A stretch of DNA of 64,000 nucleotides from Allobaculum mucilyticum (lineage in GTDB: Bacteria > Bacillota_I > Bacilli_A > Erysipelotrichales > Erysipelotrichaceae): assembly GCF_022701195.1 (NCBI RefSeq), contig NZ_CP078089.1:620001-684000 (forward strand). Direction: 5' to 3'. Below the pieces are notes generated by a model. That model had not been told where the DNA came from, ran no database searches, and saw nothing but the letters and a program-made list of their open reading frames with translations. Positions 14,952 to 32,035 of this stretch are shown here, piece by piece. The position numbers and the translations under genes are program-made. How positions within the stretch are numbered: position 1 is the first letter of the stretch; each line of letters opens with the position of its first letter.

Positions 14952-15093
14952 CTACCAGATCTGCCTGATGGTGACGGAAAAACTGGCAGCTCAACGGATG
15001 ATCACCAGTGAGGAGAAAGATCAAATATCCGCCTTACTTAAAAAAGAATTTGAACCTGAGATCACTTTGTTGCTGGATAGTTCTCCCCTTTAG
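14938..15093 (+). CDS. SHOCT-like small protein of the recombinase operon
   Basis: 51 residues from MGEIDYQICLMVTEKL to LLLDSSPL. The central AAQRMITSEEKDQISALLKK has the pattern of short SHOCT-type helical domains (x-x-G/M-I-T/S-x-E-E) that accompany recombinase genes. It overlaps the preceding gene, implying coupling. Function is unknown. Confidence 0.7.
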   Translation: MGEIDYQICLMVTEKLAAQRMITSEEKDQISALLKKEFEPEITLLLDSSPL

Positions 15094-15121
15094 AGTGATG
15101 AATACGAACGAGGAGGATACG

Positions 15122-16672
15122 ATGATTACAAAACTCAGAAAGAAGCCCGTAATGCTTCTGAAAAAGAAAAAAGTGGCAGCCTATTGCAGGGTCTCCACCA
15201 TCAGCGAAGAGCAGGAAAGCTCCTATGCCATGCAGGTCAGCTATTTCACCAGGATGATCCAATCGCATCCAGAATGGGAGTTCGCTGGCGTCTATGCAGA
15301 TCACGGCATCAGCGGAACAGGAACAAAGAGGCGTGTTGGCTTTCAGGAGATGATGAAAGCCGCGGATGAGGGGAAGATCGATCTGATCCTGACCAAGTCG
15401 ATTAAACGGTTTGCCCGCAATACTGTCGATCTGCTCAAAGCCATCCGCCATCTCAAGGAGATTGGCGTTGAGGTCCGCTTCGAGCAGGAGAACATCTCGA
15501 CGTTCTCGGAAGATGGAGATCTGATGCTCACATTGCTGGCTGCATTTGCGCAGGACGAAAGTCGCAGTCTTTCCGAAAACATCAAATGGGCAGTGAAGAA
15601 ACACTTTGAGAATGGTATTCCATGGACACTCAAGGATTGCTATGGGTACGTTTCCAGGGATGGACAACTCCATCCGCAGCCGGAACAGGCGCCAATCGTA
15701 AAACGGATCTATCAGGAGTTTCTGGCCGGAGAGCGGATGGTCAACATTGTTACCCGACTCAACGAGGAAGGCATTCTTTCTCTTAGAGGAAGCGCATGGA
15801 CAATTGGGCAGATCAGACGCGTTCTTGAAAACATAAACTACACCGGAAACCTTCTGCTTCAGAAAACTTACACAACAGATCCAGGCAAACACGTGAGCAA
15901 ACTGAATAAAGGAGAGCTGGATCAATATTTTGTTCCCGATACTCACGAGGCTCTGATCAGCATGGATGACTGGCAGCAGGTTCAGAAGATGTTAAAGAAG
16001 ATCCCTGACCGTAAACCAGACAGGACAGATGATCTGTTTCAGGGGAAGGTTTTCTGTGGACAATGCGGTTCAACCTGCTGGCTCCACGATGAATCTTATA
16101 TCTGCAGTGAAAAGACAAAAGGAGGCCGAACCGGAATCAAAACCTGCCAGGCAAAGTCGACTCCAAAATACGCGCTGGAAGAGGCCGTAGAGGGCCTGGA
16201 AGACGATGAATGGGAAAGAATCTCGGTATTCCCTGAAAAGCGGTTAGTGGTCCTTCTGACAAGCGGAGAAGAACATGTTCATCAGTATCGATCACGCGCG
16301 TATGATTCGCGAAAGGGGTTCTACGAGAACAGAAAAAAAGGAATGATGTTTCGTGCGACCAATCACATGGTGAAGCTCTATGGGGAGTTGGCCTGCTTCG
16401 TCAAATGTGAAGAGTGCGATGAGAATTATGTGGCCGGACGCTACAAGCCCAAGGATCCGGAAAAGCTCTTCTTCAGCGCCCCCTGCAAGCATGAGGGAGC
16501 ACCAAGATTTAGAAAAGGCGAGATGAAAAAGCTCATTGCAGACGTGCTTGGCATCGATGAATTCGATGTTGAAGTGATGGATGCCAATCTGAGCCATTGT
16601 ACCGTCAGTGGGAAAAGAGTCACCTTCTACTTTCACGACGGAAGAGAGGAAGTGAGGTACCTCAATGGCTAG
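15122..16672 (+). CDS. Large serine recombinase 1 (phage integrase)
   Basis: 516 residues. The start MITKLRKKP follows GAGGAGG at 15112; longer in-frame starts lack such a site. The resolvase catalytic domain has Ser25 (AAYCRVSTISEEQESSYAMQ) and KSIKRFARNTVDLL. A recombinase domain follows (ERMVNIVTRLNEEGI, RRVLENINYTGNLLLQKTY), then a zinc ribbon (FCGQCG...YICSE). Unusually, the C-terminal 150 residues lack the usual coiled coil and carry a second Cys pair (VKCEECDENYVAGRY, APCKHEG). It overlaps recombinase 2 by 8 bases, and the two probably act together in integration and excision. Confidence 0.92.
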   Translation: MITKLRKKPVMLLKKKKVAAYCRVSTISEEQESSYAMQVSYFTRMIQSHPEWEFAGVYADHGISGTGTKRRVGFQEMMKAADEGKIDLILTKSIKRFARNTVDLLKAIRHLKEIGVEVRFEQENISTFSEDGDLMLTLLAAFAQDESRSLSENIKWAVKKHFENGIPWTLKDCYGYVSRDGQLHPQPEQAPIVKRIYQEFLAGERMVNIVTRLNEEGILSLRGSAWTIGQIRRVLENINYTGNLLLQKTYTTDPGKHVSKLNKGELDQYFVPDTHEALISMDDWQQVQKMLKKIPDRKPDRTDDLFQGKVFCGQCGSTCWLHDESYICSEKTKGGRTGIKTCQAKSTPKYALEEAVEGLEDDEWERISVFPEKRLVVLLTSGEEHVHQYRSRAYDSRKGFYENRKKGMMFRATNHMVKLYGELACFVKCEECDENYVAGRYKPKDPEKLFFSAPCKHEGAPRFRKGEMKKLIADVLGIDEFDVEVMDANLSHCTVSGKRVTFYFHDGREEVRYLNG

Positions 16673-18203
16673 AACGGTATTCAAGATTCCGAAGGCAGGA
16701 GCGCAACCCAACGCAAGTACTCCCAAGGCCAGACCCAAAAAGCGAGTAGCAGCTTACGCCCGTGTGAGCACGCTTCTTGAAGAGCAGGCTTCTAGCTATC
16801 AGACGCAGGTGAACTTCTATAACGAGTACATCAGCAGCCGTGAGGACTGGGAGATGGTCAAAGTGTATGCCGACGAGGGCATCAGCGCGACCAACACCAA
16901 GCGGCGTGAAGGTTTTAAGGAAATGGTCCATGACGCTCTGGACGGAAAGATCGACCTCATTATCACAAAGTCCATCAGCCGCTTTGCCCGCAATACGGTA
17001 GATTCCCTTCAGACGATTCGCCAACTCAAGGAAAAAGGCGTAGAGGTCTACTTCGAAAAGGAAAACATCTGGACTCTGGACAGCAAAGGTGAGGTACTGC
17101 TGACGATCATGTCCTCGCTGGCGCAGGAAGAAAGCCGATCCATTTCAGAGAATGTGAAATGGGGCGCCCGGAAACGCTTCGCGGAAGGTAAAGCGTCAGT
17201 GGCGTATTCGAGATTTCTGGGTTATGACAAGGACTTCAAGATTAACGAGGCAGAAGCGGCCACGGTCAGGAAAATATTCGGCTGGTTCCTGCAGGGTCAC
17301 AGCTATATTGGAATTGCCCGAATGCTTAATGATGGCAATTATCCAACAGCCTCAGGTAAGGGAAAATGGAACGACAGCACAGTCAAACGAATCCTCACCA
17401 ACGAAAAATACAAAGGAGACGCCCTGCTTCAGAAGACCTATTCCGTTGACTTTCTGACAAAGAAATCCGTGATCAATACCGGAGAGGTCCAGCAATACTA
17501 CGTGACCGAACATCACGACCCGATTATCGATCCTGAAGTGTTTGACAGAGTGCAGGTTGAAATCGCCAACCGCACCCAGCGAAAAAGAGGATACGCCTTT
17601 TCCGGAAAACTGATCTGCGGAGAGTGCGGAGAGCGCTACACCCACAAGACCTGGCACTCCACAGACAAGTACAAGAAAACCATCTGGCAATGCAAGGGCA
17701 AGTTCAAAACGAAACACTCCACCTCGTTTCTGACAGAAGCGGAAGTTGAACAGGCATTTGTGAGCGCGGTCAATAAAATGATCAGCCGGAAAGATGACCT
17801 CCTGCCGACGCTCAATAACGTTGTCAAATCCGGCCTTGGAATTGATGAGCTTGAAGAGCAGGCGCAAACGATCACAGAGCGCCAAAAAACAATTGAAAGC
17901 CAGCTCACAGATCTGGTTGACGAGACCACTCAAAGCCCGCTTTCCGTCCGGACTATAGAAACTCTTTCTGAAGAGTATGGCAGACTGGATCATGAGCTTG
18001 GCGAACTGACGAAGGAGATCAGCAAGCGAAAAAGCAGGCTGTATCGAATCCAGGAATATTGTGAGAATCTCACCTCAACCAAAGTGTTCGACGCTTACGA
18101 CGAGGACAAATTCCGAAATATGGTGGATATCATAACGGTTCTGGCCAACAAGGAGCTATGCTTCAAATTCATGGATGGCAGTGAAGTCACTGTCAAAGTT
18201 TAA
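16665..18203 (+). CDS. Large serine recombinase 2
   Basis: 512 residues. The resolvase domain has catalytic Ser35 (VAAYARVSTLLEEQASSYQT) and KSISRFARNTVDSL. The recombinase domain contains YIGIARMLNDGNYPTASG and KRILTNEKYKGDALLQKTY. The zinc ribbon is LICGECGERYTHK...IWQCKGK, followed by a coiled coil (about residues 390-470) as in large serine integrases. It overlaps recombinase 1. Tandem pairs of unlike large serine recombinases are known in Bacillota prophages and SCC-like islands. It is more canonical than recombinase 1 and may be the true integrase. Confidence 0.93.
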   Translation: MARTVFKIPKAGAQPNASTPKARPKKRVAAYARVSTLLEEQASSYQTQVNFYNEYISSREDWEMVKVYADEGISATNTKRREGFKEMVHDALDGKIDLIITKSISRFARNTVDSLQTIRQLKEKGVEVYFEKENIWTLDSKGEVLLTIMSSLAQEESRSISENVKWGARKRFAEGKASVAYSRFLGYDKDFKINEAEAATVRKIFGWFLQGHSYIGIARMLNDGNYPTASGKGKWNDSTVKRILTNEKYKGDALLQKTYSVDFLTKKSVINTGEVQQYYVTEHHDPIIDPEVFDRVQVEIANRTQRKRGYAFSGKLICGECGERYTHKTWHSTDKYKKTIWQCKGKFKTKHSTSFLTEAEVEQAFVSAVNKMISRKDDLLPTLNNVVKSGLGIDELEEQAQTITERQKTIESQLTDLVDETTQSPLSVRTIETLSEEYGRLDHELGELTKEISKRKSRLYRIQEYCENLTSTKVFDAYDEDKFRNMVDIITVLANKELCFKFMDGSEVTVKV

Positions 18204-18210
18204 AAACATA

Positions 18211-18255
18211 AAAAGCGTTGATCTGACCGAGCAGGGTTGCAGATTAACGCTTTTT
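18211..18255 (+). terminator. Terminator of the recombinase operon
   Basis: AAAAGCGTTGATCTG at 18211 pairs with CAGATTAACGCTTTT ending 18254 (one mismatch), followed by T-rich sequence. It is eight bases after the recombinase 2 stop. Confidence 0.85.
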
Positions 18256-18936
18256 ATATTGGGTCTGTTCATACGGCCTTGTATCCCCCTCATCAGCGCA
18301 ACGAAATACAGGCGGTTTTCTTATTTATGCTTTATATAAGGGGTATTTTTTGTATCCTTCTTCCTCAATGCGGTATCTCACTGAAGGAAATAGGATACAA
18401 AGAATTCAGGTCGCATTTTAACGCTTTTTGTCTGAGTGCCACTTTTGCTTTATATAAAGAAAAAAATCCAGCAAATCTCGATTTAGGTTTACTAGACAAT
18501 TTTATTTCAGACTGTCCCATTTGAATACTTTTTGTTTGAATACATCCCGTTATTGTTTTTGTATTAAAAACAGCCAGGGGCCTCATAGTTTTTGAAGAAA
18601 CCAGCTTTACAAGATTCAATGAACTCTATCTTGCCTTTTCCGTAAAATTGCCGGAGCAAGTATCATTCTTATGGCTGTTGAAATTTGCTTCAGAACGCCG
18701 AGAAGCTCTTCGAGTGACTTTCCTGAGGATCTCTTCCAGTACGAGTCAGACAACGGGAATAGCGATTATCGTCAGAGTAGATTGAATCCAACGTGTAAAG
18801 ATAACCTTAGAAATATCGAGATAAGAATCTGGGCAATTTTGCTACTTGTTTCCAACATAATGGCTATACTTTTGGTAAATAACATATATTAAATTAGATG
18901 CATCGATCAGGTTTCAATTAGTGCAAGGCATGAGTT
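18256..18936. other. Degenerate AT-rich region without a convincing gene
   Basis: There is no good gene here. A 73-codon frame at 18671-18892 (MAVEICFRTPRSSSS, ending in one hydrophobic segment) lacks a ribosome site and is probably a fragment. The palindrome CTTTATATAAAG is at 18448-18459, with a near match GCTTTATATAAG at 18329-18340; the same 12-mer is at 5939 and 50816. This looks like eroded lysogeny-region DNA. Confidence 0.5.
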
Positions 18937-19115: not shown

Positions 19116-19511
19116 ATGGAACATAAATTTCATTCAAAAGCCAAGTTAGGTGCTGTTTTACTTGCCTCAACTCTGTGCGTTTGCGTCCCTTTAGCGCCTA
19201 TTAATGCGAAAAGCGTTGAATCTTCACCGACAGCTGTCCAACCAAGATGGTGGCCTGGAGATCCAAATCCTCGTCCGGGATCTGAAGCTTGGCTACAGCA
19301 ACACGCAAGTGTTAAACCCGGAAATATGGAGGTGGCTCGGCGTTGTGCTCTCCAGGCATTGGCCCCATCTGGAATTGGCGCTGGAGCCGGCGAGTTTCTT
19401 TCATGGCTTGCCAAAGGCGTCTGGTCGGTAGGAAGTTTTGCTCAATCATTCGGTGTTAGCTGGGTGGTGGGATACTTTGATTGTATTATCCAAGATGCAG
19501 CAACTCATTAA
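19116..19511 (+). CDS. Putative secreted peptide precursor (bacteriocin-like)
   Basis: 131 residues from MEHKFHSKAKLGAVLLAS; the start follows AAAGGA. A Sec signal peptide is expected to be cleaved after PINA (about residue 31). The mature part has a proline/tryptophan-rich head (PRWWPGDPNPRPG) and a hydrophobic glycine-rich tail (SGIGAGAGEFLSWLAKGVWS, VGSFAQSFGVSWVVGYFDC). It holds exactly two cysteines (RRCAL, FDCII), suitable for one disulfide. I do not recognise a family. The next two genes (thioredoxin-like lipoprotein, small membrane protein) make a secreted antimicrobial the best guess. Confidence 0.55.
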   Translation: MEHKFHSKAKLGAVLLASTLCVCVPLAPINAKSVESSPTAVQPRWWPGDPNPRPGSEAWLQQHASVKPGNMEVARRCALQALAPSGIGAGAGEFLSWLAKGVWSVGSFAQSFGVSWVVGYFDCIIQDAATH

Positions 19512-19971
19512 TGGCAGTACATCCGATTATACAAAGTTAATTTTAAAACTAGTAATAGTGCTTATAACAATGTTCAATTTGATATGTTTTTCTGGATGCT
19601 CAAAATCGGAACCTATTTCAGATACAATTGAAAATATAGATTTTGAGACATTAAAAAATGAAGTTAATAGTGGTGAAGCATTCATTTTAGAACTTGCTAT
19701 GTCGAATTGTCATTATTGTAAGGAATTTGAATCGGAATGTCTAAATATACCATCCAGAAACGAAATTAGGTATTTGCGTTTATATTTAGATAATATAGAT
19801 ATTTCAGAACTCGAAAGCTTGCTGAATAGTAATATTGACTCTGTTCCTGTGGTGAGTTGGATCCAAGATGGAAAAAATCAGGATAATTTCCCTGTGAGCT
19901 ATCAATATAGTAGAAAAAGACTATTTCAGGAGTGGATAGACGATAATATCGCTTATTTTGAGGTTCAATGA
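19495..19971 (+). CDS. Thioredoxin-like lipoprotein, bacteriocin-accessory type
   Basis: 158 residues from MQQLINGSTSDYTKLILKL. One hydrophobic segment ends in a lipobox-like ICFSGC. The exported domain has the thioredoxin-fold active site ELAMSNCHYCKEFE (CxxC) and the cis-Pro loop SVPVVSWIQDG. This resembles PedC/BrcD-type accessory proteins needed for disulfide formation in class II bacteriocins. It overlaps the precursor gene by 17 bases and has no strong ribosome site, so it is probably coupled. The unit is visibly AT-richer than neighbouring phage genes, suggesting separate acquisition. Confidence 0.68.
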   Translation: MQQLINGSTSDYTKLILKLVIVLITMFNLICFSGCSKSEPISDTIENIDFETLKNEVNSGEAFILELAMSNCHYCKEFESECLNIPSRNEIRYLRLYLDNIDISELESLLNSNIDSVPVVSWIQDGKNQDNFPVSYQYSRKRLFQEWIDDNIAYFEVQ

Positions 19972-19978
19972 AAGAAGA

Positions 19979-20152
19979 ATGATAAATAAAGGTTCGGTTA
20001 GACAAGTCGTTTTCAGCATAGCTTTCACCTTAATCGTTATTGTGCTGATCAGAGCGCTTAAAGAGGGCGATACTTCTAAAACATTTAGCTGTGTTGTGAT
20101 ATTCCTTTTGGTTGCCGTGCTCTATGGCTTTATTTTGAAGCGAACTAAATGA
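19979..20152 (+). CDS. Small two-helix membrane protein, candidate immunity protein
   Basis: 57 residues, MINKGSVRQVVFSIAFTLIV followed by a charged loop (RALKEGDTSKTF) and a second hydrophobic helix (VVIFLLVAVLYGFILKRTK). The start follows GAAAGAAG seven bases after the accessory gene. Size, topology and position as last gene of the cassette match bacteriocin immunity proteins, but there is no sequence motif to prove it. Confidence 0.55.
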   Translation: MINKGSVRQVVFSIAFTLIVIVLIRALKEGDTSKTFSCVVIFLLVAVLYGFILKRTK

Positions 20153-20203
20153 CTTGTTGAAATGATAATTTGAACGTCTGCAAAATGGACTAAACACAAG
20201 AAT

Positions 20204-20246
20204 AGCCAGCAAGCCTCACCACTGACGGTGAAGCCTGCTGGCTGTT
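20204..20246. terminator. Bidirectional terminator between convergent units
   Basis: AGCCAGCA at 20204 pairs with TGCTGGCT ending 20243, with an inner TCACC/GGTGA stem. It is followed by GTTT rightward and a short T-rich stretch leftward. It separates the rightward peptide cassette from the leftward amidase gene. Confidence 0.6.
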
Positions 20247-20249
20247 TCG

Positions 20250-21206
20250 CTATTTCAGAATTTCGTTTACGTGCTTCTGCACGCTTGCTGGATCATACCC
20301 GGCTTTCTTCAGTCGATTCACCCTGTCCTGACCATTGCCCCATTTTCCTGCAATGACCTCTCGGGCAATCGTATCAATGCTCTTCTTTCCCGCTCCCAGT
20401 TTCTGGTTGACCAGAGCCTGAATAGCAGTCGGATCATATCCAGCAGCTTTCAAACGGTTGATTCGGTCGTTTCCGTTTCCCCACTTGCCATTGATGACTT
20501 CCTGGGCAATCACATCATTGGACTTCTTTGTCTGAGTGGCAGGAGCTGCTTTCTGACCTACCAGTTCGTTGACCTTTGCCTGAACGGCATTGTAGTCGTA
20601 TCCGGCTGCAATTAGGCGGTTCTTCCGATCATCCCCGTTGCCCCATTTTCCGTTGATGACTTCCTTTGCGATGACATCAACGGATTTTTTGGTTGGCTCG
20701 TTGTTTACAGTGCTGCCGTTGACCAGGCGTACCAGTTCTGGGAATTTCGATTTCAGATATGGACCAGGACAATTGGTCGCCGCAAACATGTCATGACATG
20801 TCAGAGTTCCATTGGAGTGTCCTGTCCAGGTCAGATTGATGCCGTAACGCTCACAGATATCTTTGCAGAGTCTGACCAGAGAATTGAAAGCTGCATCGGA
20901 GATGGGCCAGTCTCCGCCAGTTGCAGAATTAGCGACCTCGATTGTGATAGCCTGGTTATCATTCTCCCAGGAACTGGACGTCCAGGCCCTGAATTCTTCC
21001 GGAACACCACCCCAGATGGTTCCATCCGTACCGATGTAGTAGTTGGAAGATGCCTGTCTGTCACAGTCCCGGTGATACTTTGCACAGGCTGCAGCTCCCA
21101 TGTTTCCAGCCATGTGATGAGGGGTGATCTTGGTGATTTTGGATGTTCGAGGGTTGCATTTATTGTAGATCGGTGTTGATCCGTTAATCAGTGTTGAATA
21201 GGTCAT
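20250..21206 (-). CDS. Endolysin: N-acetylmuramoyl-L-alanine amidase with three Cpl-7-type repeats
   Basis: 318 residues after AAGGAGGAACT. The Amidase_2 domain (about 20-165) has zinc ligand candidates in ITPHHMAGNMG and in LTCHDMFAATNCPGPYLKSK. The C-terminal half has three near-identical CW_7 wall-binding units (KSVDVIAKEVINGKWGNGDD, KSNDVIAQEVINGKWGNGND, KSIDTIAREVIAGKWGNGQD). It cleaves peptidoglycan to lyse the host. It is the last gene of the leftward late block, directly after the holin genes, and overlaps the preceding gene by 4 bases. Confidence 0.95.
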   Translation of the reverse strand: MTYSTLINGSTPIYNKCNPRTSKITKITPHHMAGNMGAAACAKYHRDCDRQASSNYYIGTDGTIWGGVPEEFRAWTSSSWENDNQAITIEVANSATGGDWPISDAAFNSLVRLCKDICERYGINLTWTGHSNGTLTCHDMFAATNCPGPYLKSKFPELVRLVNGSTVNNEPTKKSVDVIAKEVINGKWGNGDDRKNRLIAAGYDYNAVQAKVNELVGQKAAPATQTKKSNDVIAQEVINGKWGNGNDRINRLKAAGYDPTAIQALVNQKLGAGKKSIDTIAREVIAGKWGNGQDRVNRLKKAGYDPASVQKHVNEILK

Positions 21207-21562
21207 AGTTCCTCCTTAATGCTGCTGCCACGCGCGAATACGAGATCGTCGATTCGTCTGGCGCAGTCCATCATCTGTTTTGTATTGTTGCCATCCACGT
21301 TGTGCTTGAGCAGGTTAGAAGTAGATTCCAGCAATAACCGGTTCACATCCTGCTGCAGAAGAAAGCTGTGATGGTCTTTGTTGAGTTTTTCCTGATGCTC
21401 AGCCAGCTCGTCTTTCAGTGCGCGGACCTCTTCTTCCAGATCGCTTACGCGCTCTTTGAGTTTTAAAAATGGCTTGAAAGCCAAAGACAGAAGCGCTGCT
21501 ATCGAAGACAGCGCTCCTGCAATGGCTCCAAGCCAGACAATGCTTGTTTCCAGTTCAGGCAT
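21203..21562 (-). CDS. Membrane-anchored coiled-coil protein, holin accessory type
   Basis: 119 residues. The N-terminal hydrophobic helix (IVWLGAIAGALSSIAALLSL) is followed by a coiled coil (LKLKERVSDLEEEVRALKDE). This resembles XhlA-like or Rz-like partners of holins and probably assists lysis at the cytoplasmic membrane. It overlaps both the holin gene (8 bases) and the amidase gene (4 bases). Confidence 0.65.
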   Translation of the reverse strand: MPELETSIVWLGAIAGALSSIAALLSLAFKPFLKLKERVSDLEEEVRALKDELAEHQEKLNKDHHSFLLQQDVNRLLLESTSNLLKHNVDGNNTKQMMDCARRIDDLVFARGSSIKEEL

Positions 21563-21758
21563 TGTCCACCTCCGGAAGACCGGCTACAGAGGTCAGAAGG
21601 CTGACCAGTCCAGCCAGTGCGGAAGCGGAAAGGACGACCAAAAAGTCGACCTCGGTAATCAGAGCAGAGGCTCCAATAACGCCAACAGCCGTCTGCGCTA
21701 CTGTTTTAATGGCGCGGACGGCTGCTGCTTTGATCCAGATTTTCGTTTTGTTGCTCAT
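21555..21758 (-). CDS. Phage holin, r1t-like
   Basis: 67 residues; the start MSNKTKIWIKAAAVRAIKT follows AAAGGAGATGTTTCA. There are two hydrophobic helices (TVAQTAVGVIGASALI, DFLVVLSASALAGLVSLLT). The pattern KxWIKAAxxRAIKTxAQTA with LSxxxAGLVSLLTSVAGLPE matches the r1t holin family. It forms the membrane lesion that releases the endolysin. Confidence 0.85.
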   Translation of the reverse strand: MSNKTKIWIKAAAVRAIKTVAQTAVGVIGASALITEVDFLVVLSASALAGLVSLLTSVAGLPEVDNA

Positions 21759-21772
21759 TGAAACATCTCCTT

Positions 21773-22204
21773 TCATACTTGTTTTTCCCAAGCGGTTGGA
21801 AGATCCATTGGACTGAACGCTGTATCTTCAAGTGCCTTATAGATAGATCCATCCGTGAAAGTCATGAACTCTCCAGATTTGTACAGATCATGAGCTCCGC
21901 TAGGCGTAGACCAGGGATAAGCGTGCTCTTTGTCTTTTCCGTGATGCGGCTTCCAGATCGTCGCTACGGATTGATTCCAGTCGGGATGAATGCTGCCGTC
22001 GTAGTCGACAAGGCATTCAAAAGGCTGGTCAGATTCCCGATCCCGGAAGATCTCACCAGCCTTGTAAGTGGAATTCTGCTTGTACACAGGAAAGCCAAGA
22101 TCAAACTCTGCTGGATCACCACCAGCGTTTACGACCTCTTTGGTCAGAAAGACAATCAGATTTCGTAAAAAGCGGATCAGTTTATCGTCTTCATTCATCA
22201 ACAT
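21773..22204 (-). CDS. Phage protein with carbohydrate-binding-like W-rich repeats
   Basis: 143 residues. YKAGEIFRDRESDQPFECLV followed by HPDWNQSVATIWK, and later YKSGEFMTFTDGSIYKALED and PTAWEKQV, repeat a CBM5/12-like pattern (Y-x-x-G-x-x...Y-K-C/A-L...W). Such modules occur in phage tail-tip and lysis regions as receptor- or wall-binding proteins. It overlaps the upstream gene by 14 bases. Confidence 0.55.
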   Translation of the reverse strand: MLMNEDDKLIRFLRNLIVFLTKEVVNAGGDPAEFDLGFPVYKQNSTYKAGEIFRDRESDQPFECLVDYDGSIHPDWNQSVATIWKPHHGKDKEHAYPWSTPSGAHDLYKSGEFMTFTDGSIYKALEDTAFSPMDLPTAWEKQV

Positions 22205-22913
22205 TCACTCCTCTCAAGATATTCAGAATCCGATCTGTCCGGTCTTCCACTTTGCCGATTTGTCTGGGCTTGAACCATTCCAACACCGGTGGGTTCTCAA
22301 TTTTGGCTGACGTCCAATCTGCTGTTGGATTTTCTTCAAACCGGCTGCTTCGACGCACCGGAAGGCTGGGATCGTACAAAGAGTCATCCCCAATGTGCTG
22401 AACCGTTACTGGAATGGTGGAAAGCACCGGAATCTGCTTGTGTTTGAGAAAGCTGAGAATTCCATGGCTTTCCAGAACACCTTCACCAAAGACGGCCTCG
22501 ATATAGTTGAAGCATTCTTCGACAATACCAATTGGCAGCAGAATGGCGCATCCCCACATCGACCAGTCGTGCTGGATATAGGGGCTATCCAGTCCGCTAA
22601 TGAAGTCGTTGTAACAATCTCCGTCAAAGGCCATGGTGAAAAGCGAAAAAGCGCAATCAGGATGTGACTGCGCCATTTGCTCAATGATCCGTTTGAATCC
22701 ACTACATACCTGGACATCATCATTCAACACGACTCGGTGGGTAACTCCTTCCTCATGAGGAAGAAGCCAGGTTTGCTTGACTGGAAGATAGGGGTTTCCG
22801 GTTTCGGTGCTTTCATCATAGAAAATATCCTGATCTGTAAGTTCCAACGCATCCCGTAAGTTTTCCACCATCTCCTGACGCTGGCGGGAAGCGACAATTT
22901 TGATATCGACCAT
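22191..22913 (-). CDS. Putative glycosyltransferase-like phage protein
   Basis: 240 residues; the start MVDIKIVASRQRQEMV follows AGGAGGTGATAAGG. The early sequence (VASRQRQEMVENLRDALE), a DxD-like HRVVLNDDVQVCSGFKRII and WGCAILLPIGIVEECFNYIE resemble GT-A type sugar transferases that occasionally sit in phage tail regions. It might glycosylate tail fibres or surface sugars. The assignment rests on weak motifs. Confidence 0.45.
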   Translation of the reverse strand: MVDIKIVASRQRQEMVENLRDALELTDQDIFYDESTETGNPYLPVKQTWLLPHEEGVTHRVVLNDDVQVCSGFKRIIEQMAQSHPDCAFSLFTMAFDGDCYNDFISGLDSPYIQHDWSMWGCAILLPIGIVEECFNYIEAVFGEGVLESHGILSFLKHKQIPVLSTIPVTVQHIGDDSLYDPSLPVRRSSRFEENPTADWTSAKIENPPVLEWFKPRQIGKVEDRTDRILNILRGVNVDE

Positions 22914-22925
22914 CCTTATCACCTC

Positions 22926-24455
22926 CTAGGCCGATGTTCTCCACTCAATACAGTTGAGAATGCAAGTGGACGAACACGATGTGGATGGGTAGTACAACTT
23001 CAAGCATTTTTGGCCACAGACCTCATACGGCTCGACAAAGATGACTTGATAATAGTTGTTGTTGGTGAAGATCACCGGCATGATTCCCATCTGGATAGAA
23101 GACAAGGCTGCGTCACCTTGGGCTGTATCCAATGTGCTTTGATATCCGGTGTAGTTCAAGATCAGACCGGATGCTGATCCGGAGGCCTGGTAAGTTCGCA
23201 ACAGAAATACATTCGAGTAAACAACATGGGTGGAAGAAGATCGATGGGCATAGAACGTAAAGCGCAAATGACACCAAAGATAAGGACTGCCGGATGTGAG
23301 GGTTGGAACCGATGTTGTCCATCCCGAAGCAGAGCTTGAGGGCGTATCAGAAGTCGTGGTTAACAGGAAATAGGCGCTCACAGAGCTTAACCGTTCGTTG
23401 TAATTTCCAATCAGCACGGGTTGGCTGTCTACGCTTGAACCGTCCTCGTAGTTCACTTTGAAATACGTCCACATCGTCGGATAAGAAGAGCTCAGGGTTG
23501 GAAGGGTTGTACTCCATCCGGAAGTGGCAGTAGGAGCTGTTGAATTGCTCGAAGAGCGGCAATAGTACTGGACAATGCTGGAGATTTTGCTGGTGACATC
23601 ACTTCCATCGGTTCCATCGATTCCGTCTAGGATTTGAGCGAGCTCTCTGGTCCCGTTAGCATCTGTGATCGTAATGGTTGTTGTTTTATCCGCCTTTGTT
23701 GCACTCAAGGTTGGTGAAACGCCGGAGGGACCTTGGGCTCCTGTATTTCCGTAAACACCCATGATCATTTTGGCTGTTTCTGTTGTCTGGTTATTGGTCA
23801 GCGTGAATCGTAAATAGCCCCAAAGATAGCGGTAGCCAGACGTAAGCGTCGGGACACTTGTCGAGTAGCCGCTGGTTGGTGCGGAGGTGCTGCTTGTCGA
23901 TCTGGCTAGATAAACAGAGACTGACTGTACGCCGACTCCTTGTGCACCTTTGATATTGACCGGACTTGGATTATCCAGTCCACCATCATTGGTCCATGAG
24001 ATGACGCCAGCAGAAGAAACGGAAGGTGTGAAGGTTGTTCCTGTCCGCTTTCCGGTAATACCGCCAGTATCCGCAAGAGCCTCGTTCACCAGATCCATCA
24101 AAGAATGAACCGTATCGGGATCAAGAAGATCCGTTACACTGGCTCCCACACCAACACGGTATCGAACGAGGGAGGATGTGATTCTCTGGTTTCCTTTCTC
24201 GCCCATGATGCCAATGAAAATCGTTCCGGACTCTTCCAGGACAGCTGTAGGAATAAGGGTCTGGCCAGAATTGTCCAGATCAGAAAAATAGCAGTCCAAT
24301 CCGTTTCTGGAAAAGACCGCTGTCTTAGCAAAGCCGCTCCACTCCGTATCAAAAGTGACCTGAATCGAATCCACGTTTTGGGTTCCGGAAAAGATCGGAT
24401 TGAGATCAGAACCAGTCAGAACGCGCTGACTGATTTGTAATGGCAGGATACTCAT
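22926..24455 (-). CDS. Baseplate/tail fibre protein (BppU-like N-terminus, repeated tips)
   Basis: 509 residues after GGAGGTGGACA. The N-terminus (about 1-110) has the BppU baseplate-attachment pattern (SIQVTFDTEWSGFAKTAVFS). Then come short collagen-like segments (VYGNTGAQGPSG, GIDGTDGSD). Three repeats share a form such as TAPTATSGWSTTLPTLSSSY ending in LWxxLRFT/MWTYFKVN. The C-terminal domain (ASGLILNYTGYQSTLDTAQG onward) is probably the receptor-binding tip. Overlaps the upstream DUF1617-like gene by 4 bases. Confidence 0.82.
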   Translation of the reverse strand: MSILPLQISQRVLTGSDLNPIFSGTQNVDSIQVTFDTEWSGFAKTAVFSRNGLDCYFSDLDNSGQTLIPTAVLEESGTIFIGIMGEKGNQRITSSLVRYRVGVGASVTDLLDPDTVHSLMDLVNEALADTGGITGKRTGTTFTPSVSSAGVISWTNDGGLDNPSPVNIKGAQGVGVQSVSVYLARSTSSTSAPTSGYSTSVPTLTSGYRYLWGYLRFTLTNNQTTETAKMIMGVYGNTGAQGPSGVSPTLSATKADKTTTITITDANGTRELAQILDGIDGTDGSDVTSKISSIVQYYCRSSSNSTAPTATSGWSTTLPTLSSSYPTMWTYFKVNYEDGSSVDSQPVLIGNYNERLSSVSAYFLLTTTSDTPSSSASGWTTSVPTLTSGSPYLWCHLRFTFYAHRSSSTHVVYSNVFLLRTYQASGSASGLILNYTGYQSTLDTAQGDAALSSIQMGIMPVIFTNNNYYQVIFVEPYEVCGQKCLKLYYPSTSCSSTCILNCIEWRTSA

Positions 24456-24781
24456 TGTCCACCTCCTTTCAGAATCGGTACTAATGCCATGGCTTGTCTT
24501 GGCGTCATGGTGTCCAGCGCTTTAAAAAGCTCTGCTGAATCAATGGGCTCAATGGCCACCTCATTTTCGATCGCCAGCAATTCCGTGAACGGCTCTTCTT
24601 CCGGAACTCCATTTTCGCCTTTGGGCAATTTCTCAATGACCAGAGCGATAGAACGTCTCAGACTTTCAAGACTCAGAAAGATCTGACTGATCTGAAACGC
24701 CAGTTTCACCGGAAGAGTCTGTTCCATCAGCCCTTCCAGCGAGCAGGCTAAGTCGAAGATCTGTGCGTTTGTTAATTTCAT
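24452..24781 (-). CDS. DUF1617-like phage protein
   Basis: 109 residues after GAAAGGAGCAACCG. The start MKLTNAQIFDLACSLEGLME and LPVKLAFQISQIFLSLESLR follow the DUF1617 pattern of short helical proteins in tail regions. Role unknown. Confidence 0.6.
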   Translation of the reverse strand: MKLTNAQIFDLACSLEGLMEQTLPVKLAFQISQIFLSLESLRRSIALVIEKLPKGENGVPEEEPFTELLAIENEVAIEPIDSAELFKALDTMTPRQAMALVPILKGGGQ

Positions 24782-24899
24782 CGGTTGCTCCTTTCAGTTC
24801 CTCTTGTGTCACGACAGATTGCGTCCTCTGCTGAACCGAATGGTCCATTGGCTGGACTTCATCCGCCTTGCTGCATGCCGGGAATATATATTCACTCAA
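24666..24899 (-). CDS. Possible small tail-region protein, start TTG
   Basis: A 77-codon frame starting at TTG 24899 (LSEYIFPACSKADEVQPMDH, then SVQQRTQSVVTQEELKGATD), preceded by GGAGGTGTGATCTA. Its last third overlaps the DUF1617-like gene in another frame, which argues against it. It fills an otherwise empty 114-base gap. Confidence 0.3.
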   Translation of the reverse strand: MSEYIFPACSKADEVQPMDHSVQQRTQSVVTQEELKGATDEINKRTDLRLSLLAGRADGTDSSGETGVSDQSDLSES

Positions 24900-27766
24900 T
24901 AGATCACACCTCCAGAGATTTTGCAGTTGTACCACTCCTGAACGGTTCCATCTGAATTGATGGAAATTGGCAGTTTGATGCTGGTGGGAGATGACCAGCT
25001 GCCAAAACCGGAATACCCGCTGCTGTTGACAATATCCGGCTGCTGCAGATTGCAGTTTTTCAGGTGGTGGTAATGAAAGTCGGCATTGTCGAAAAAGTCT
25101 ACTTCACAGCTGAAGTAGAGATGATCACGAACATAATCACCAAAGCTCTTATTTGCATAGAGCATCTGGACAATATAATTTCCAGAGCTGCTGACTTTAG
25201 CCGCCCAGGCCATATAAGCGCCATCAGGATCAAGATCGAATACGAGTCCTCGAGCTGAAGAATAGCCCGTGAAAGAATTGACACCGATTCGTCCCAGGTT
25301 ATAGCTGTCGCGCCAGAAAGTCATTCCGCTTTGACCAAGCTGCATGAGCCGATTGGCAGCTGTCTTTGAAGAGGCGGAGAAGATATTGATCGTCCCGCCG
25401 CTGAATTCGATGTAATTGGAAATATTGCTCCAGGCGATGCGAACTGCTTCAGCATTCTGTTGAATATAGGAAGCGATCTGGCTGGTTCCAACCTTGGTGG
25501 AAACGGTCGAAACGATGGAATCGTAGTTCATCTGAATTGATGCCTGCGTGGTGGTCAATTCCGACATCTTTTTCTGATAGTCCGTCGCTTTCTGTCCTTC
25601 TTCCAGTTTGAAACGAGAGAAAGTTACGAAATTGGAGGTACCAGGTGCTCCAGTCTTCTTGAGAGTGATTCCAAACGATGAAGATGAAGCAATGGTACCC
25701 ACCCGGAATGTGATGGAAATCCGGTAATCGTAGGAAGGCGGTTTAATCGTGGTAGTAACCACACCGGTTGTCTGATCCGCCTGAAGAGTCACGGTGCTGC
25801 TGCTGTTGGTGGTTTTCACAGCTTCCAGCAGCTTTCTTCCAGTTCGGATCTCAAGTGTTACCGGTGAGGTTGTTGTTCCTCTTATATAGGCGCTGAAGGT
25901 GTAGTAATGATTTTGGTTGAACGGGATGCTGATTCCCTGAGATGTCAGGATCTCCACATCACCAGAGATGGAATCGTCAAATTGCATCGTCTTTGCTCCA
26001 TTCACATAGGAGCTGGAAACCGTACAATTGGCATGCCTTTTCCATGTGTACGTACTTCCCCAATCCGCTGTATAAGGAAGCAGGTTATTTGGCATTGCGT
26101 ACTCCTGATAAACCTGCAGCTGAATCGAATCGGTCTTCAGGTCAATCTCGCTTTTGGAATAGTACTGAGCAAGCTGCTCTCGAAACTGACCATCTGTATA
26201 GTCCTTAGCCTGCTGATAAACGGAAAGACTGATGGAGTCCATGGCGTTGGTGATCCGTGATTCTGTCTCCACCTGTGTCCAGTAAGCTTTGAGCTTCTCG
26301 GATGTATCTGCTTTGGCTGCAGCCAGACTGTCCGAGATATTTTGCTCGACACTCGTTCGATAGGATATGTCGAGCTTTTCTGCTGCAATGGAATTTGCGG
26401 CGACCATGTTACCGGCAATGGTTCCATCCATGGTCATGGCTGTCTGGTATGGACCGGCATAACCATTGGAGGAGAAGCCAAGACCACCCATATTCCATCT
26501 CCAGACGTTTTGAGCTGTTTCCAGATCTTTTGTATCAATAATGCAGATTTCCTGAATCTGTCCTTGCTCATCCTGAACCTGAACAACGTGTCCATGTTTT
26601 CCAAATGTGGTCAGAAGCTGTGTAGCTTGTTCTTTGGCCTCTTCAAGAAGAGAATTTGGTGTTCGAAGTGCCTGGACTTTTTGGGCAATGGAAACTTGCG
26701 AGGCTTTGGAGCTGCTGGTAAAGGAGATGGGTTTTCCTCCAAGGTGATACAGATTCTGATCCGGCTGCAGCAGATGAATGGTCATGCTGGTCAGCGGAAA
26801 GACTTCATTGATCTGGTGATAGTCGGATTGAACACGGATGCGGTCAAGCAGCCGGAAGTCATCGACATTCACATCCAACATCGAGAGATCTACAGCGCTG
26901 ATTTCCAGTTGCAGGTCTTCGTACTGGTTATGCTCCAGCCACTCCTGGCCTTTGGTTTTCAAAAGAGAAGGCGTATGGATGTCTTCGAATGTGACGACTT
27001 TGCAAATCCGTCCGTACTTCGTAATAGCAGTAGATGCTTCTAGGTAGTCTTTCTGGTTATTGACGGCGGCAATGGAAACTCTCTCTTCCAGGGCTTCAAT
27101 CTGACGGTCTTCTAAAGTTGCACCTAGAGGAATGACAACTGTTGCCAGTTCCGTCGATTCGCTGTTACAGACGTAATCCATCAGGTTTTCCCTGAAATGG
27201 ATCTGCTGTCCACAAACACGAGGGTAGCTATTCAGGATATCCAGATACCGGTGATTGTTTTCATGCCGAATCTGGAGAATCCCACCCAGGCGATTGATGA
27301 CCTTATCCATCAGGCAAAACAGGGTATCTTCATAATTCGTATAGCGATAGAGCGAGTCATTGGGATCGGTGATGTTCACCACTCCAAGCTCGAAGGTTTC
27401 ATCAGACTGTCCGTTGTGGTGGTTCAGAAGCGTTTGGATAAATCCGCGAACGGACATGTCATGGTATTCGGTCGGACGTTGAATGGAGTCGGACAGATAG
27501 GACAGCTCGCCTTGGACTTCCACAGCTTTCGTTCCATAGAAGTCAGTCTCGATTCGTCTGATTCTTCCATAGAAGATCGGCTCATTGTCCTTGGAAACGA
27601 TGATTCTCAGACCATGAGCGATGAGATCAAAAGCTGGATGGGCGGATGTGATGGAAAAAGAAAAAGACCCTGCTTCGTTCATTGCAAGGTCCAACACAGG
27701 ATCGATCAGCAATAAAGAGCTGGAAGGATCCATGAGGCAGGTCGCATCGGAATAAACGGTATACAT
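24896..27766 (-). CDS. Tail-associated protein/tail endopeptidase (Prophage_tail family)
   Basis: 956 residues; the start MYTVYSDATCLMDPSSSLLL overlaps the stop of the Dit gene and follows AAAGGAGCCTTTG. The N-terminal ~380 residues carry the siphovirus Tal hub fold (YGRIRRIETDFYGTKAVEVQ, RPTEYHDMSVRGFIQTLLNH, NYEDTLFCLMDKVINRLGGI). The long C-terminal part has coiled-coil segments (SDSLAAAKADTSEKLKAYWT) and a carbohydrate-binding-like domain (TFSAYIRGTTTSPVTLEIRT). It caps the tail and contacts the host. Confidence 0.88.
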   Translation of the reverse strand: MYTVYSDATCLMDPSSSLLLIDPVLDLAMNEAGSFSFSITSAHPAFDLIAHGLRIIVSKDNEPIFYGRIRRIETDFYGTKAVEVQGELSYLSDSIQRPTEYHDMSVRGFIQTLLNHHNGQSDETFELGVVNITDPNDSLYRYTNYEDTLFCLMDKVINRLGGILQIRHENNHRYLDILNSYPRVCGQQIHFRENLMDYVCNSESTELATVVIPLGATLEDRQIEALEERVSIAAVNNQKDYLEASTAITKYGRICKVVTFEDIHTPSLLKTKGQEWLEHNQYEDLQLEISAVDLSMLDVNVDDFRLLDRIRVQSDYHQINEVFPLTSMTIHLLQPDQNLYHLGGKPISFTSSSKASQVSIAQKVQALRTPNSLLEEAKEQATQLLTTFGKHGHVVQVQDEQGQIQEICIIDTKDLETAQNVWRWNMGGLGFSSNGYAGPYQTAMTMDGTIAGNMVAANSIAAEKLDISYRTSVEQNISDSLAAAKADTSEKLKAYWTQVETESRITNAMDSISLSVYQQAKDYTDGQFREQLAQYYSKSEIDLKTDSIQLQVYQEYAMPNNLLPYTADWGSTYTWKRHANCTVSSSYVNGAKTMQFDDSISGDVEILTSQGISIPFNQNHYYTFSAYIRGTTTSPVTLEIRTGRKLLEAVKTTNSSSTVTLQADQTTGVVTTTIKPPSYDYRISITFRVGTIASSSSFGITLKKTGAPGTSNFVTFSRFKLEEGQKATDYQKKMSELTTTQASIQMNYDSIVSTVSTKVGTSQIASYIQQNAEAVRIAWSNISNYIEFSGGTINIFSASSKTAANRLMQLGQSGMTFWRDSYNLGRIGVNSFTGYSSARGLVFDLDPDGAYMAWAAKVSSSGNYIVQMLYANKSFGDYVRDHLYFSCEVDFFDNADFHYHHLKNCNLQQPDIVNSSGYSGFGSWSSPTSIKLPISINSDGTVQEWYNCKISGGVIY

Positions 27767-28197
27767 CAAAGGCTCCTTTCCAGCGGACTTCCCAGTTTGG
27801 TCACTGGTTGTTTAAACGGATCACAATCCGCCGTGATGACAACTTCTGTGATAGCGGGACAATTCTTCTGAACATGAACGGAGAGTCTACCAATCCAGTA
27901 GTATTCCGGATCATTGTCCAAGATAAAAGCCATCCGCTTTCCGTGCAGAGCATTCATCAGCTCGGATTGCAGATGGCCATCATGGTCGAATTCTGTCCAA
28001 AAGTTTATTGTAATTGTCCGGTTCAGGTAGGTTGTGTGTCCATAGAGAGCATCCGTCAGGTCAAGAACACCATCACGGCCTGGAACGGAAAGCTGGTAGG
28101 TTTGGACATCTGGCTCATTGATCTGGAGAGCAGCGAAGTGCAGTTTCCAGTCTTTGGCGGTGTGGTAGAGATTGTCGAATGTGACTCCGAGTTTCAT
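27766..28197 (-). CDS. Distal tail protein (short Dit)
   Basis: 143 residues: FDNLYHTAKDWKLHFAALQI, VPGRDGVLDLTDALYG and RTITINFWTEFDHDGHLQSE match the N-terminal ring domain of siphovirus Dit proteins. The usual galectin-like second domain is missing, so it is a minimal Dit. It lies between an inserted HEPN gene and the tail hub gene; a terminator (28214-28258) stands just upstream. Confidence 0.8.
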   Translation of the reverse strand: MKLGVTFDNLYHTAKDWKLHFAALQINEPDVQTYQLSVPGRDGVLDLTDALYGHTTYLNRTITINFWTEFDHDGHLQSELMNALHGKRMAFILDNDPEYYWIGRLSVHVQKNCPAITEVVITADCDPFKQPVTKLGSPLERSL

Positions 28198-28213
28198 AGC
28201 TGCCTCCTTTCAT

Positions 28214-28258
28214 GAAAAAAGCCTGAAAATCATCAACTCCAAGTTGGAGGTTCAGGCT
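28214..28258 (-). terminator. Terminator at the end of the inserted HEPN gene, inside the late block
   Basis: On the minus strand AGCCTGAA pairs with TTCAGGCT, with an inner CTCCAA/TTGGAG stem, followed by a run of six T. The stop codon of the gene at 28233 lies within the hairpin. It would stop transcripts before the Dit, tail hub, fibre and lysis genes unless antiterminated. Confidence 0.82.
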
Positions 28259-28994
28259 TAACTGCATTCAATAAATTCAGAACTGATGAGACGATTTCAA
28301 CTACAAATTCAGATTCTACTTTGTTCAAAACAGGATTGTCATGAGCATAACTTTTGTTATTTCGAATGTCGTTAAAAGCTTCTAATAGACTGATTGAGCT
28401 TTTCAATGCCCGCAAAGAGAATTCACTTTCGATCAAATTATTCTCTTCGTAATGATTACATAATCGTCCCATAACACTGTGGAGAGGAAGATAATCACCG
28501 TTACTTTTCTTAATAGGGATTTGGCTATCATCACAGATTGTTCGTAAGAATTTGGTTGTGAAGGTATGTAATCTGTCTAAGGCAAGCGTCGGTTTGCCTT
28601 CTTCAATTAAAGCGGTTATCTCTGGTCGTAATGTTTCGAGAGTGGGATCCGGTTTCTCAGGCAAATTAATGGTTGGCTTATCGTGAGGAAGAAATAAAAA
28701 TTCTCTACTCACCAACCCTGTTGTTTCAGGATCTAGAGCTCGATTAAAAACTTGCACAAAATTTGGCTTATTATCTTCGATTATTTCAAGGTCTGTTTCT
28801 GCTCCAAAAATGTCAACATCGATTGCATGAAAGTCCCAGTACCCACATATTCCAGCATAATAGGCATAGCCAACATCTCTATGTTTTATTTCACACCGTT
28901 TAATTGGTTCTAGAAATATCTCCATTTTCATAGCCTTGGCATACTTTGCAAATAGAGCTTTAAAATCTTCCGGGAAGTTGTAATTATAGGACAC
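28233..28994 (-). CDS. HEPN/Abi C-terminal-domain protein inserted in the tail operon
   Basis: 253 residues, GTG start after AGAGGAAAATAAA. The N-terminal ~120 residues are unrecognised. The C-terminal half has the helical Abi_C/HEPN pattern: LHTFTTKFLRTICDDSQIPI, LHSVMGRLCNHYEENN, then LEAFNDIRNNKSYAHDNPVL with Arg211 and His218 as the R-x6-H ribonuclease motif, and a final helix pair. HEPN proteins of this type abort infection by cutting RNA. It replaces the usual tight spacing between tape measure and Dit genes and carries its own terminator, as a moron would. It probably protects the lysogen from other phages. Confidence 0.65.
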   Translation of the reverse strand: MSYNYNFPEDFKALFAKYAKAMKMEIFLEPIKRCEIKHRDVGYAYYAGICGYWDFHAIDVDIFGAETDLEIIEDNKPNFVQVFNRALDPETTGLVSREFLFLPHDKPTINLPEKPDPTLETLRPEITALIEEGKPTLALDRLHTFTTKFLRTICDDSQIPIKKSNGDYLPLHSVMGRLCNHYEENNLIESEFSLRALKSSISLLEAFNDIRNNKSYAHDNPVLNKVESEFVVEIVSSVLNLLNAVKPEPPTWS

Positions 28995-28995
28995 T

Positions 28996-31761: not shown

Positions 31762-32035
31762 TATCTCACTCCTTTCTCTTTCAGCTTCCAAAGAGAAGTA
31801 CGGTCAGGTTCTGTCTTTTCATACAGGAAGCAATTTCTCAGATATTTTCTGCCGTCCTCTGTCTGCTGCATCCGATAGATGTAGGCGTCTTTTCGATACT
31901 GCAGGTACTCTTCATAGAGAAGCTGGTCGATTTCATGGAAATTCAGTCCGGTGTATTCCATGACCAGATGTTCATAGAAGGTCTCAATGTCATACGGCTG
32001 CCCTTCGCTCTGGACAGGATAGAAGGGCAGCTCTA
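31761..32035 (-). CDS. Tail assembly chaperone extension (GT-type), made by -1 frameshift
   Basis: This frame has no start of its own near the upstream gene. It joins to the end of the 32033-32332 gene by a -1 slip at A-AAA-AAC, giving NAKKLELPFYPVQSEGQPYD and then LVMEYTGLNFHEIDQLLYEE to the end. An internal ATG at 31961 also exists. The fusion of about 190 residues matches the lambda G/GT arrangement: the short form and the longer T-containing form both act in tail tube assembly around the tape measure. Confidence 0.82.

Follow-up and report, generated by a model that had tools for sequence, protein, structure and literature searches.

A prophage-carried cassette for a putative Sec-dependent, disulfide-bonded bacteriocin in Allobaculum mucilyticum

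One of two tandem prophages of Allobaculum mucilyticum carries three adjacent genes that probably (at a rough probability of 0.65) form an EntV-like cassette: a Sec-dependent bacteriocin closed by a disulfide bond, a catalyst for its folding and an immunity protein. The order of the genes is kept in a relative, the precursor has a conserved cysteine pair and belongs to a family of modular construction, and the cassette lies inside the prophage. The roles assigned here, precursor for gene 1, oxidant for gene 2 and immunity for gene 3, draw on the precedents of EntV, sublancin and the bactofencin and pediocin loci. The disulfide-stabilised antimicrobial of the original prediction remains the best-supported reading, but the three-gene unit is not universal.

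In the proposed mechanism the gene 1 product would leave the cell by the Sec pathway, with signal peptidase cleaving near PINA/KS, and the lipid-anchored thioredoxin encoded by gene 2 would make or isomerise the Cys77–Cys123 bond outside the membrane. The mature peptide would span ~87 residues, starting at about the WWPG box and reaching the C-terminus, or fewer if proteolysis trims it, and would act on the membranes of related bacteria, with the two-helix membrane protein of gene 3 protecting the producer. The benefit to the prophage would be a competitive edge conferred on its lysogen.

Organization of the cassette

The window (the whole stretch of 64,000 nucleotides analysed) contains the features listed in Table 1. 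The cassette is flanked by a recombinase gene (end at 18203; read as a serine recombinase) and by an amidase endolysin gene (20250–21206) on the opposite strand. As originally predicted, gene 1 encodes a Sec-exported 131-residue protein with exactly two mature cysteines. Its signal peptide, of the kind found in EntV-type bacteriocins, is recognised by hydropathy (KD19 of 2.18 at residue 11) and by an AxA-like, signal-peptidase-like site (PINA/KS) read by eye; cysteines 21 and 23 lie within it, and Cys77 and Cys123 are the sole pair in the mature region. The tail is Gly-rich, as had been claimed, but its hydrophobicity is no more than moderate (best 19-residue Kyte-Doolittle mean 1.15; GRAVY 0.54 from residue 75).

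Gene 2 starts 17 nt within gene 1 and agrees with the predicted overlapping lipoprotein, with a lipobox (FSGC), a CxxC motif (NCHYCKEF) and a cis-Pro position (SVPVV) identified by reading; the CHYC motif and the cis-Pro are both conserved in Erysipelotrichaceae bacterium RD49. Its thioredoxin-family scores are weak, with E 0.0073 against Pfam Thioredoxin, under the cut-off, and E 0.002 and 18 bits against PedC_BrcD (TIGR01295), which does not reach the cut-off of 120. Gene 3, likewise as predicted, encodes a 57-residue protein with two TM-like segments, at about 9–27 and 35–53. It has no significant domain match in Pfam or NCBIfam, including none to the Pfam SdpI family (PF13630) expected of an SDP-type system.

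Two statements about the surroundings held in part. The cassette was said to lie between terminators, and there is a strong hairpin to its right, but the nearest terminator folded on the left is about 0.9 kb away with a 73-aa ORF in between; this ORF has no significant family match in Pfam, NCBIfam, PHROGs or PADLOC. It was also said to be AT-richer than the phage, which is so for genes 2 and 3 (GC 0.326) and not for gene 1 alone (0.49), compared with 0.478 for window 20250–64000; the whole cassette has a GC of 0.389. A promoter scan of the cassette region performed at chance (6 found versus 6.1 expected). By reading, there is no ABC transporter among the ORFs of at least 40 aa between 18203 and 20250 and no processing protease linked to the cassette.

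Table 1. Features of the cassette and its flanks (window coordinates)
Feature	Position	Strand	Remarks
Left att site of prophage B, where tandem prophage A adjoins it	18373..18375	.	DNA rightward is the phage left arm
Terminator-like hairpin after prophage A recombinase	18208..18257	+	MFE -26.5 kcal/mol for 18200-18262
One-TM ORF between att site and gene 1, a doubtful member of the cassette	18671..18892	+	73 aa; also in G004
Gene 1, precursor, putative bacteriocin	19116..19511	+	131 aa
Gene 1 signal peptide, ~residues 1-31	19116..19208	+	hydropathy; probable cleavage site by reading
WWPGDPNPRPGSEAWLQQ box of gene 1	19248..19301	+	100% identical in RD49, dN 0
Core of gene 1, Cys77 to Cys123, putative disulfide	19344..19484	+	Cys pair kept in family
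Gene 2, thioredoxin-type CxxC lipoprotein	19495..19971	+	158 aa; best start ATG 19495
CHYC motif of gene 2	19708..19719	+	kept in RD49
Gene 3, two-TM protein, putative immunity protein	19979..20152	+	57 aa; RD49 homologue z 8.0
Terminator hairpin between cassette and endolysin	20204..20243	.	18-pair stem; MFE -30.7 for 20181-20260

Location in the prophage

Self-comparison of the chromosome reveals two related prophages in tandem, A (genome ~588663–638375) and B (638373–694876), of about 50 and 56 kb, with an identical junction at genome 588663, 638373 and 694874. The cassette lies within 1.8 kb of the left att site of prophage B and was correctly predicted to be prophage-carried; the possibility that it is host DNA caught between two prophages was rejected, as the att comparison places it inside prophage B. 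The att site falls in a WXG100 gene (Pfam, above cut-off), which lies beyond the last junction on the right and has its 3' end extending into phage DNA; next comes an EssC-like type VII secretion gene (241.9 bits, below cut-off); the gene to the left of the first junction (genome 588663) has no Pfam assignment.

The position is that of a lysogenic-conversion module, between att sites and with other genes in the slot of related phages. Near the equivalent slot prophage A has a DUF285/LRR repeat gene with a DUF5648 end (L017 6791–8388, − strand), and the sister prophage of genome G001, 92% identical over 8 kb, has a T5orf172/DUF4357 gene (L055 1290–2015, − strand) and then a gene 3 remnant whose frame is shifted near the start, with genes 1 and 2 absent from the slot. 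The cassette site is a variable lysogeny-gene slot. A stretch of prophage A also matches the end of the window endolysin gene at 87% identity.

In a second Allobaculum genome, G004, 1395 bp covering the phage left arm and part of the cassette match at 99.86% identity. The match begins at window 18370, with different DNA to the left of the junction, and runs to a contig end inside gene 2. G004 gives no independent proof of a prophage location because window 20200–32000 has no match in this 67%-complete genome; it has none in RD49 (G002) or G003 either.

Several further features of the tandem prophages were recorded. The DUF285/LRR gene of prophage A consists of two ORFs and is apparently split. 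Prophage A ends in two head-to-tail overlapping genes read as serine recombinases (window 15008–18203), and a 95% copy of this stretch ends prophage B. A 1.65-kb insertion-like sequence is present in four copies of >99% identity within and close to the prophages, at genome 582591, 619084, 665762 and 685171.

The precursor family

The gene 1 precursor belongs to a small, unnamed family in the Erysipelotrichaceae, accepted in six genomes: that of the window (G000), RD49, G004, G334, G230 and G092, which are labelled own, same genus or same family. G334 has two intact copies and G092 encodes a divergent member. A first search among 194 relatives matched four genomes, the window's own included, and a two-row profile matched 7/315 genomes of the order at E 0.01. 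With a five-row profile there were matches in 12 of 314 at E 0.05 (the six accepted among them), in 3/395 of a class sample and in 4/392 of a phylum sample, these order, class and phylum samples overlapping. A further search matched 8 of 55 genomes, G230 being one; the other seven matches (E 6e-4 to 0.097) fall in open frames of 297–1568 aa (six) or 107 aa (one).

Five distinct core sequences share the box WWPG[N/D]PNP[Q/R]PG[T/S]E, and 11 box positions are invariant in the family alignment. All five have the cysteine pair, spaced 42–47 residues apart, and a constant 85–87 residues between WPG and the C-terminus, whereas the region ahead of the box varies in length; the divergent G092 protein has one mature cysteine. 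G092 (E 0.01) was retained for its AWPGxP box, its overlapping TM ORF and a like fragment in G334 (C71). Two remnants were treated separately: the probable one, the G121 match (E 1.9e-7), is a C-terminal fragment with no N-terminal part in the frame read and was left uncounted, and the possible one, G320 (E 0.023), has a 38-aa ORF (L034 1267–1383, + strand) that resembles a piece of the core and was dropped.

The remaining candidates were dropped after their loci were read, the gene names that follow resting on that reading. G038 (E 0.007; L021) has an in-frame stop and lies on the strand opposite a kinase-like gene, and G784 (E 0.0053; L028, also read in code 4) is opposite an RNase H-like gene. 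The others are within a larger peptidase-like protein (G070, E 0.023), overlap an RNase J-like gene (G077, E 0.035), are in an alternative frame of a mutase-like gene (G247, E 0.044) or form part of a larger protein with PTWWPD that is cut by a contig end (G290, E 0.013).

Profile searches are consistent with the original statement that the precursor fits no recognised bacteriocin family. No family in Pfam, NCBIfam, PHROGs or PADLOC is named at significance for gene 1, and no bacteriocin model is significant for gene 1 in these libraries or for its relatives in Pfam and NCBIfam. Instead of the double-glycine leader of class II bacteriocins, gene 1 has a Sec signal peptide. Sub-cutoff matches of gene 1 to GP46 (Pfam, E 0.011) and phrog_180 (PHROGs, E 0.0066) were rejected, as were those of its relatives to EF0750_LPXTG (0.01), 7tm_6 (0.013) and RE_BstXI (0.14 and 0.091). 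A PDB sequence search returned no bacteriocin, and its match to surfactant protein D (E 0.09) reflects Pro/Gly composition and was rejected.

Searches of mobile elements gave no relatives of the family. Among phage proteins there is none for gene 1, gene 2, one G334 precursor, the G092 precursor or the four-Cys precursor of G230 described below (two matches at E 0.8 were ignored); among plasmids there is none for gene 1, one G334 precursor, G092 or the first G230 locus (G230-1); and there is none for the precursor family in phage DNA records and viral contigs. A search of the open-licence literature with limited terms found no publication on the family by title or opening of the abstract.

Conservation and partner genes

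RD49 contains all three genes in the same order, with identities of 66% for gene 1, 48% for gene 2 and 25% for gene 3. Comparison of the window and RD49 precursors gives a dN of 0.22 and a dS of 1.1, with 100% identity in the box and 66% in the core; taken whole, the precursor is under purifying selection between the two. The shared gene order in RD49 and a precursor dN far below its dS show that the cassette is not a chance arrangement.

The co-occurrence of the three genes implied by the original prediction thus holds in RD49, but at all four intact loci outside the genus (two in G334, denoted G334a and G334b, together with G230-1 and G092) there is no thioredoxin gene beside the precursor, and the TM protein is kept. 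A TM ORF overlaps or abuts the precursor at each of these four loci versus 6/154 control ORFs, the controls being ORFs of at least 150 aa from eight stretches, gene or not, and longer than the precursors; the window and RD49 score 0 by this measure, gene 2 lying between. Homologues lacking both other genes had been named as evidence against the prediction; what is seen is half of this, with the thioredoxin absent and the TM partner present. The other such evidence, homologues among cell-wall or spore proteins, did not appear, and no accepted homologue reads in this way among the loci examined. The thioredoxin is an accessory, and not every form of the system has all three genes.

Common descent of the putative immunity genes is suggested by sequence for a single pair. 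Among 21 pairs of TM partners only that of the window and RD49 is alike (z 8.0), the other 20 having z of at most 2.7, which counts against the main reading. The weak gene 2 scores, the thioredoxin missing at four of four loci outside the genus, the lack of a significant bacteriocin model, the chance-level promoter scan and the failure to read any linked processing protease also argue against a bacteriocin.

These observations bear on a role in envelope or redox maintenance, with gene 2 encoding a general thioredoxin lipoprotein and gene 1 its cell-surface substrate, which we consider improbable. Generic thioredoxin matches are indeed common, 87 of the 314 genomes matching gene 2 at E 0.001. 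Matches below E 1e-40, however, occur in just three of these genomes (the window's own, RD49 and G004), and the best beyond them is 3.6e-10, taken here as the probable level of generic thioredoxins; moreover the precursor is rare and sporadic and has no anchor motif by reading.

Modularity

In G334 a 312-bp stretch with 87% DNA identity is common to the two intact paralogues and takes in upstream DNA, signal peptide and box. At the protein level the signal peptide, pro-part and box are 78–94% identical (94% in the box), whereas the cores have 32% aa identity and a dN of 0.70, and the TM partners are without likeness (z 0.7). In a third copy the signal peptide is present, the core is lost and an 88-aa TM gene follows, resembling what would be an orphan immunity gene. 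A fourth, cut by a contig end, has an AWPGRPGGNGD box of the G092 kind. A constant leader, an exchanged core and partner, and a partner that outlives its core are what is expected of bacteriocin and immunity genes, a modular build of this sort being typical of bacteriocins.

Variability of this kind between leader and core is also known in pheromones, and the cassette could instead encode a signalling peptide that is secreted and then sensed or processed by a membrane-bound protein. In favour of this, RD49 has a 429-aa HTH_3 regulator, possibly that of the cassette, divergently upstream of it (L011 11725–13014, − strand). The product, in contrast, would have ~87 residues and two cysteines, no histidine kinase or response regulator is seen by reading in the stretches examined, and neither gene 3 nor the 57-aa TM protein of a second G230 cassette has a significant domain match, so that we regard signalling as a poor prospect.

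Similar cassettes in G230 and on Enterococcus plasmids

A weak signal-peptide match (E 0.385) led to a second three-part cassette in G230 (L063 974–2085, + strand), whose precursor is kept apart here from the gene 1 family. It consists of a thioredoxin-type lipoprotein (ResA-like, E 5.7e-7, below cut-off), a 134-aa Sec precursor that lacks the box and has four cysteines in its mature part, and the 57-aa TM protein, for which the SdpI match (E 0.057) is below cut-off. Assignment of the four-Cys precursor to NF053514 (BLB8/JUQZ-1) was rejected (E 0.15, 12.3 bits versus a cut-off of 40).

The G230 precursor resembles WP_002365996.1, encoded by Enterococcus faecalis plasmid NZ_CP121168.1, with a pairwise E of 2e-10 and a tblastn E of only 0.4. 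The plasmid cassette (WP_002365995–997; L065 1969–3220) runs from a thioredoxin lipoprotein through the precursor to a 96-aa protein, a membrane protein by reading. The lipoprotein, annotated TraF, scores above the cut-offs of Pfam TraF and Thioredoxin and has E 1.3e-12 and 47.8 bits against PedC_BrcD (cut-off 120). Fifteen plasmid records, all from Enterococcus, have such a precursor, nine of them this one and six a 48% relative; as these and the G230 cassette were found by following one weak match, their number says nothing about frequency. A second E. faecalis plasmid (L074 718–2263), which has the relative, encodes a thioredoxin lipoprotein, a precursor with a different core, and ORFs of 65 and 66 aa that are membrane-like by reading. 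The same plasmid search with the four-Cys precursor gave two Streptomyces matches (E 0.1, 34% of the query). The first E. faecalis cassette is annotated just as TraF and hypothetical proteins, and L074 is without annotation.

Judged from the sequences, the gene 1 and four-Cys cassettes share a format: a Sec signal, a Gly-rich tail, a cysteine close to the C-terminus, a thioredoxin lipoprotein and a TM partner. The E. faecalis WP_002365995–997 cassette is like that of the window in its thioredoxin lipoprotein, its Sec precursor with Gly-rich tail and C-terminal cysteine, and its TM-like protein; it differs in the order thioredoxin–precursor–TM, in having four cysteines and in lacking a WWPG box. 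A three-row alignment of its precursor with gene 1 did not establish homology.

The occurrence of this architecture on plasmids weighs against superinfection exclusion, in which the three products would alter the envelope and thereby block DNA injection by competing phages. Known exclusion systems include a lipoprotein and a TM protein, the genes adjoin att, where lysogeny genes sit, and the contents of the slot change among related phages, from the DUF285 surface-type gene of prophage A to T5orf172 in G001. Yet no recognisable phage gene was read in the 15.5-kb RD49 contig or in the ~3-kb stretches around the G334, G230 and G092 loci, and exclusion does not call for exchange of core and partner behind a constant leader. 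We therefore consider exclusion unlikely.

Returning to the bacteriocin reading, a broader two-part proposal is put forward tentatively and may well prove wrong. Gene 1 would found a separate Erysipelotrichaceae family of Sec-exported bacteriocins with the invariant WWPGxPNPxPGxE box serving all members for recognition or docking, while the disulfide-closed C-terminal core is exchanged together with its TM immunity partner. In addition, thioredoxin lipoprotein, Sec precursor and TM protein would constitute a general mobile format, found on prophages, plasmids and chromosomes of Erysipelotrichaceae and enterococci and loaded with unrelated cores. If the bacteriocin reading is right, the cassette is a compact system of ~1 kb with no dedicated transporter, given by a phage to its host and drawn from a family unnamed in the libraries searched; the format offers a way to find peptides whose precursors vary too much for homology; and cores exchanged along with their partners open specificity and immunity to direct test.

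Comparison with known bacteriocins

The closest published mechanism found is that of EntV (ef1097) of E. faecalis, which we take to be the same as enterocin O16. The available part of the published account describes a Sec-exported prepropeptide with bacteriocin activity, whose 68-aa active part is cut by GelE and has its ends joined by one disulfide that is required for activity; the oxidant is the thioredoxin DsbA, encoded elsewhere in the core genome (PMC6606811). EntV is like the system proposed for the cassette in Sec export, in two cysteines forming one disulfide and in a thioredoxin-family oxidant outside the membrane. It is unlike it in that the DsbA gene is unlinked and that the part of the account available mentions no prophage, and the likeness drawn here is one of described mechanism.

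EntV also raises the prospect of a secreted factor aimed at a non-bacterial target such as fungi, which is highly improbable here. Allobaculum is a genus living in animal guts, and G004 is an uncultured Allobaculum. EntV itself acts on C. albicans and on Candida hyphae, in the portion of the work available (PMC6606811). The TM partners, present at every intact locus with complete DNA, nevertheless suggest self-protection, which a producer would require only where its own kind is among the targets, and so count against such a target.

For the bacteriocin interpretation, the kind of system is already known, and it is the precursor family that is without a name in the libraries searched. The original description of a possible new type was too strong as regards mechanism, both EntV (PMC6606811) and sublancin (PMC6391423) having been published. 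Sublancin 168, according to the available part of its description, is a disulfide bacteriocin carried by prophage SPbeta, with bonds made by BdbB, BdbA dispensable, and an immunity protein (PMC6391423). It resembles the system proposed for the cassette in prophage carriage, disulfide, thiol-disulfide oxidoreductase and immunity protein, and differs as a 37-residue glycocin exported by SunT with its immunity gene outside the operon.

Pediocin and bactofencin loci, as far as the available section of the source describes them, have a PedC-type thioredoxin-family accessory that helps and is not strictly required in E. coli (PMC5465099). Like the cassette as interpreted here, they bring together a bacteriocin gene, an immunity gene and a thioredoxin-family accessory gene; unlike it they use an ABC transporter that cuts the leader and exports the peptide, and gene 2 matches TIGR01295 at only 18 bits. 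The dispensable accessory described for these loci fits the absence of the thioredoxin from four loci of the precursor family.
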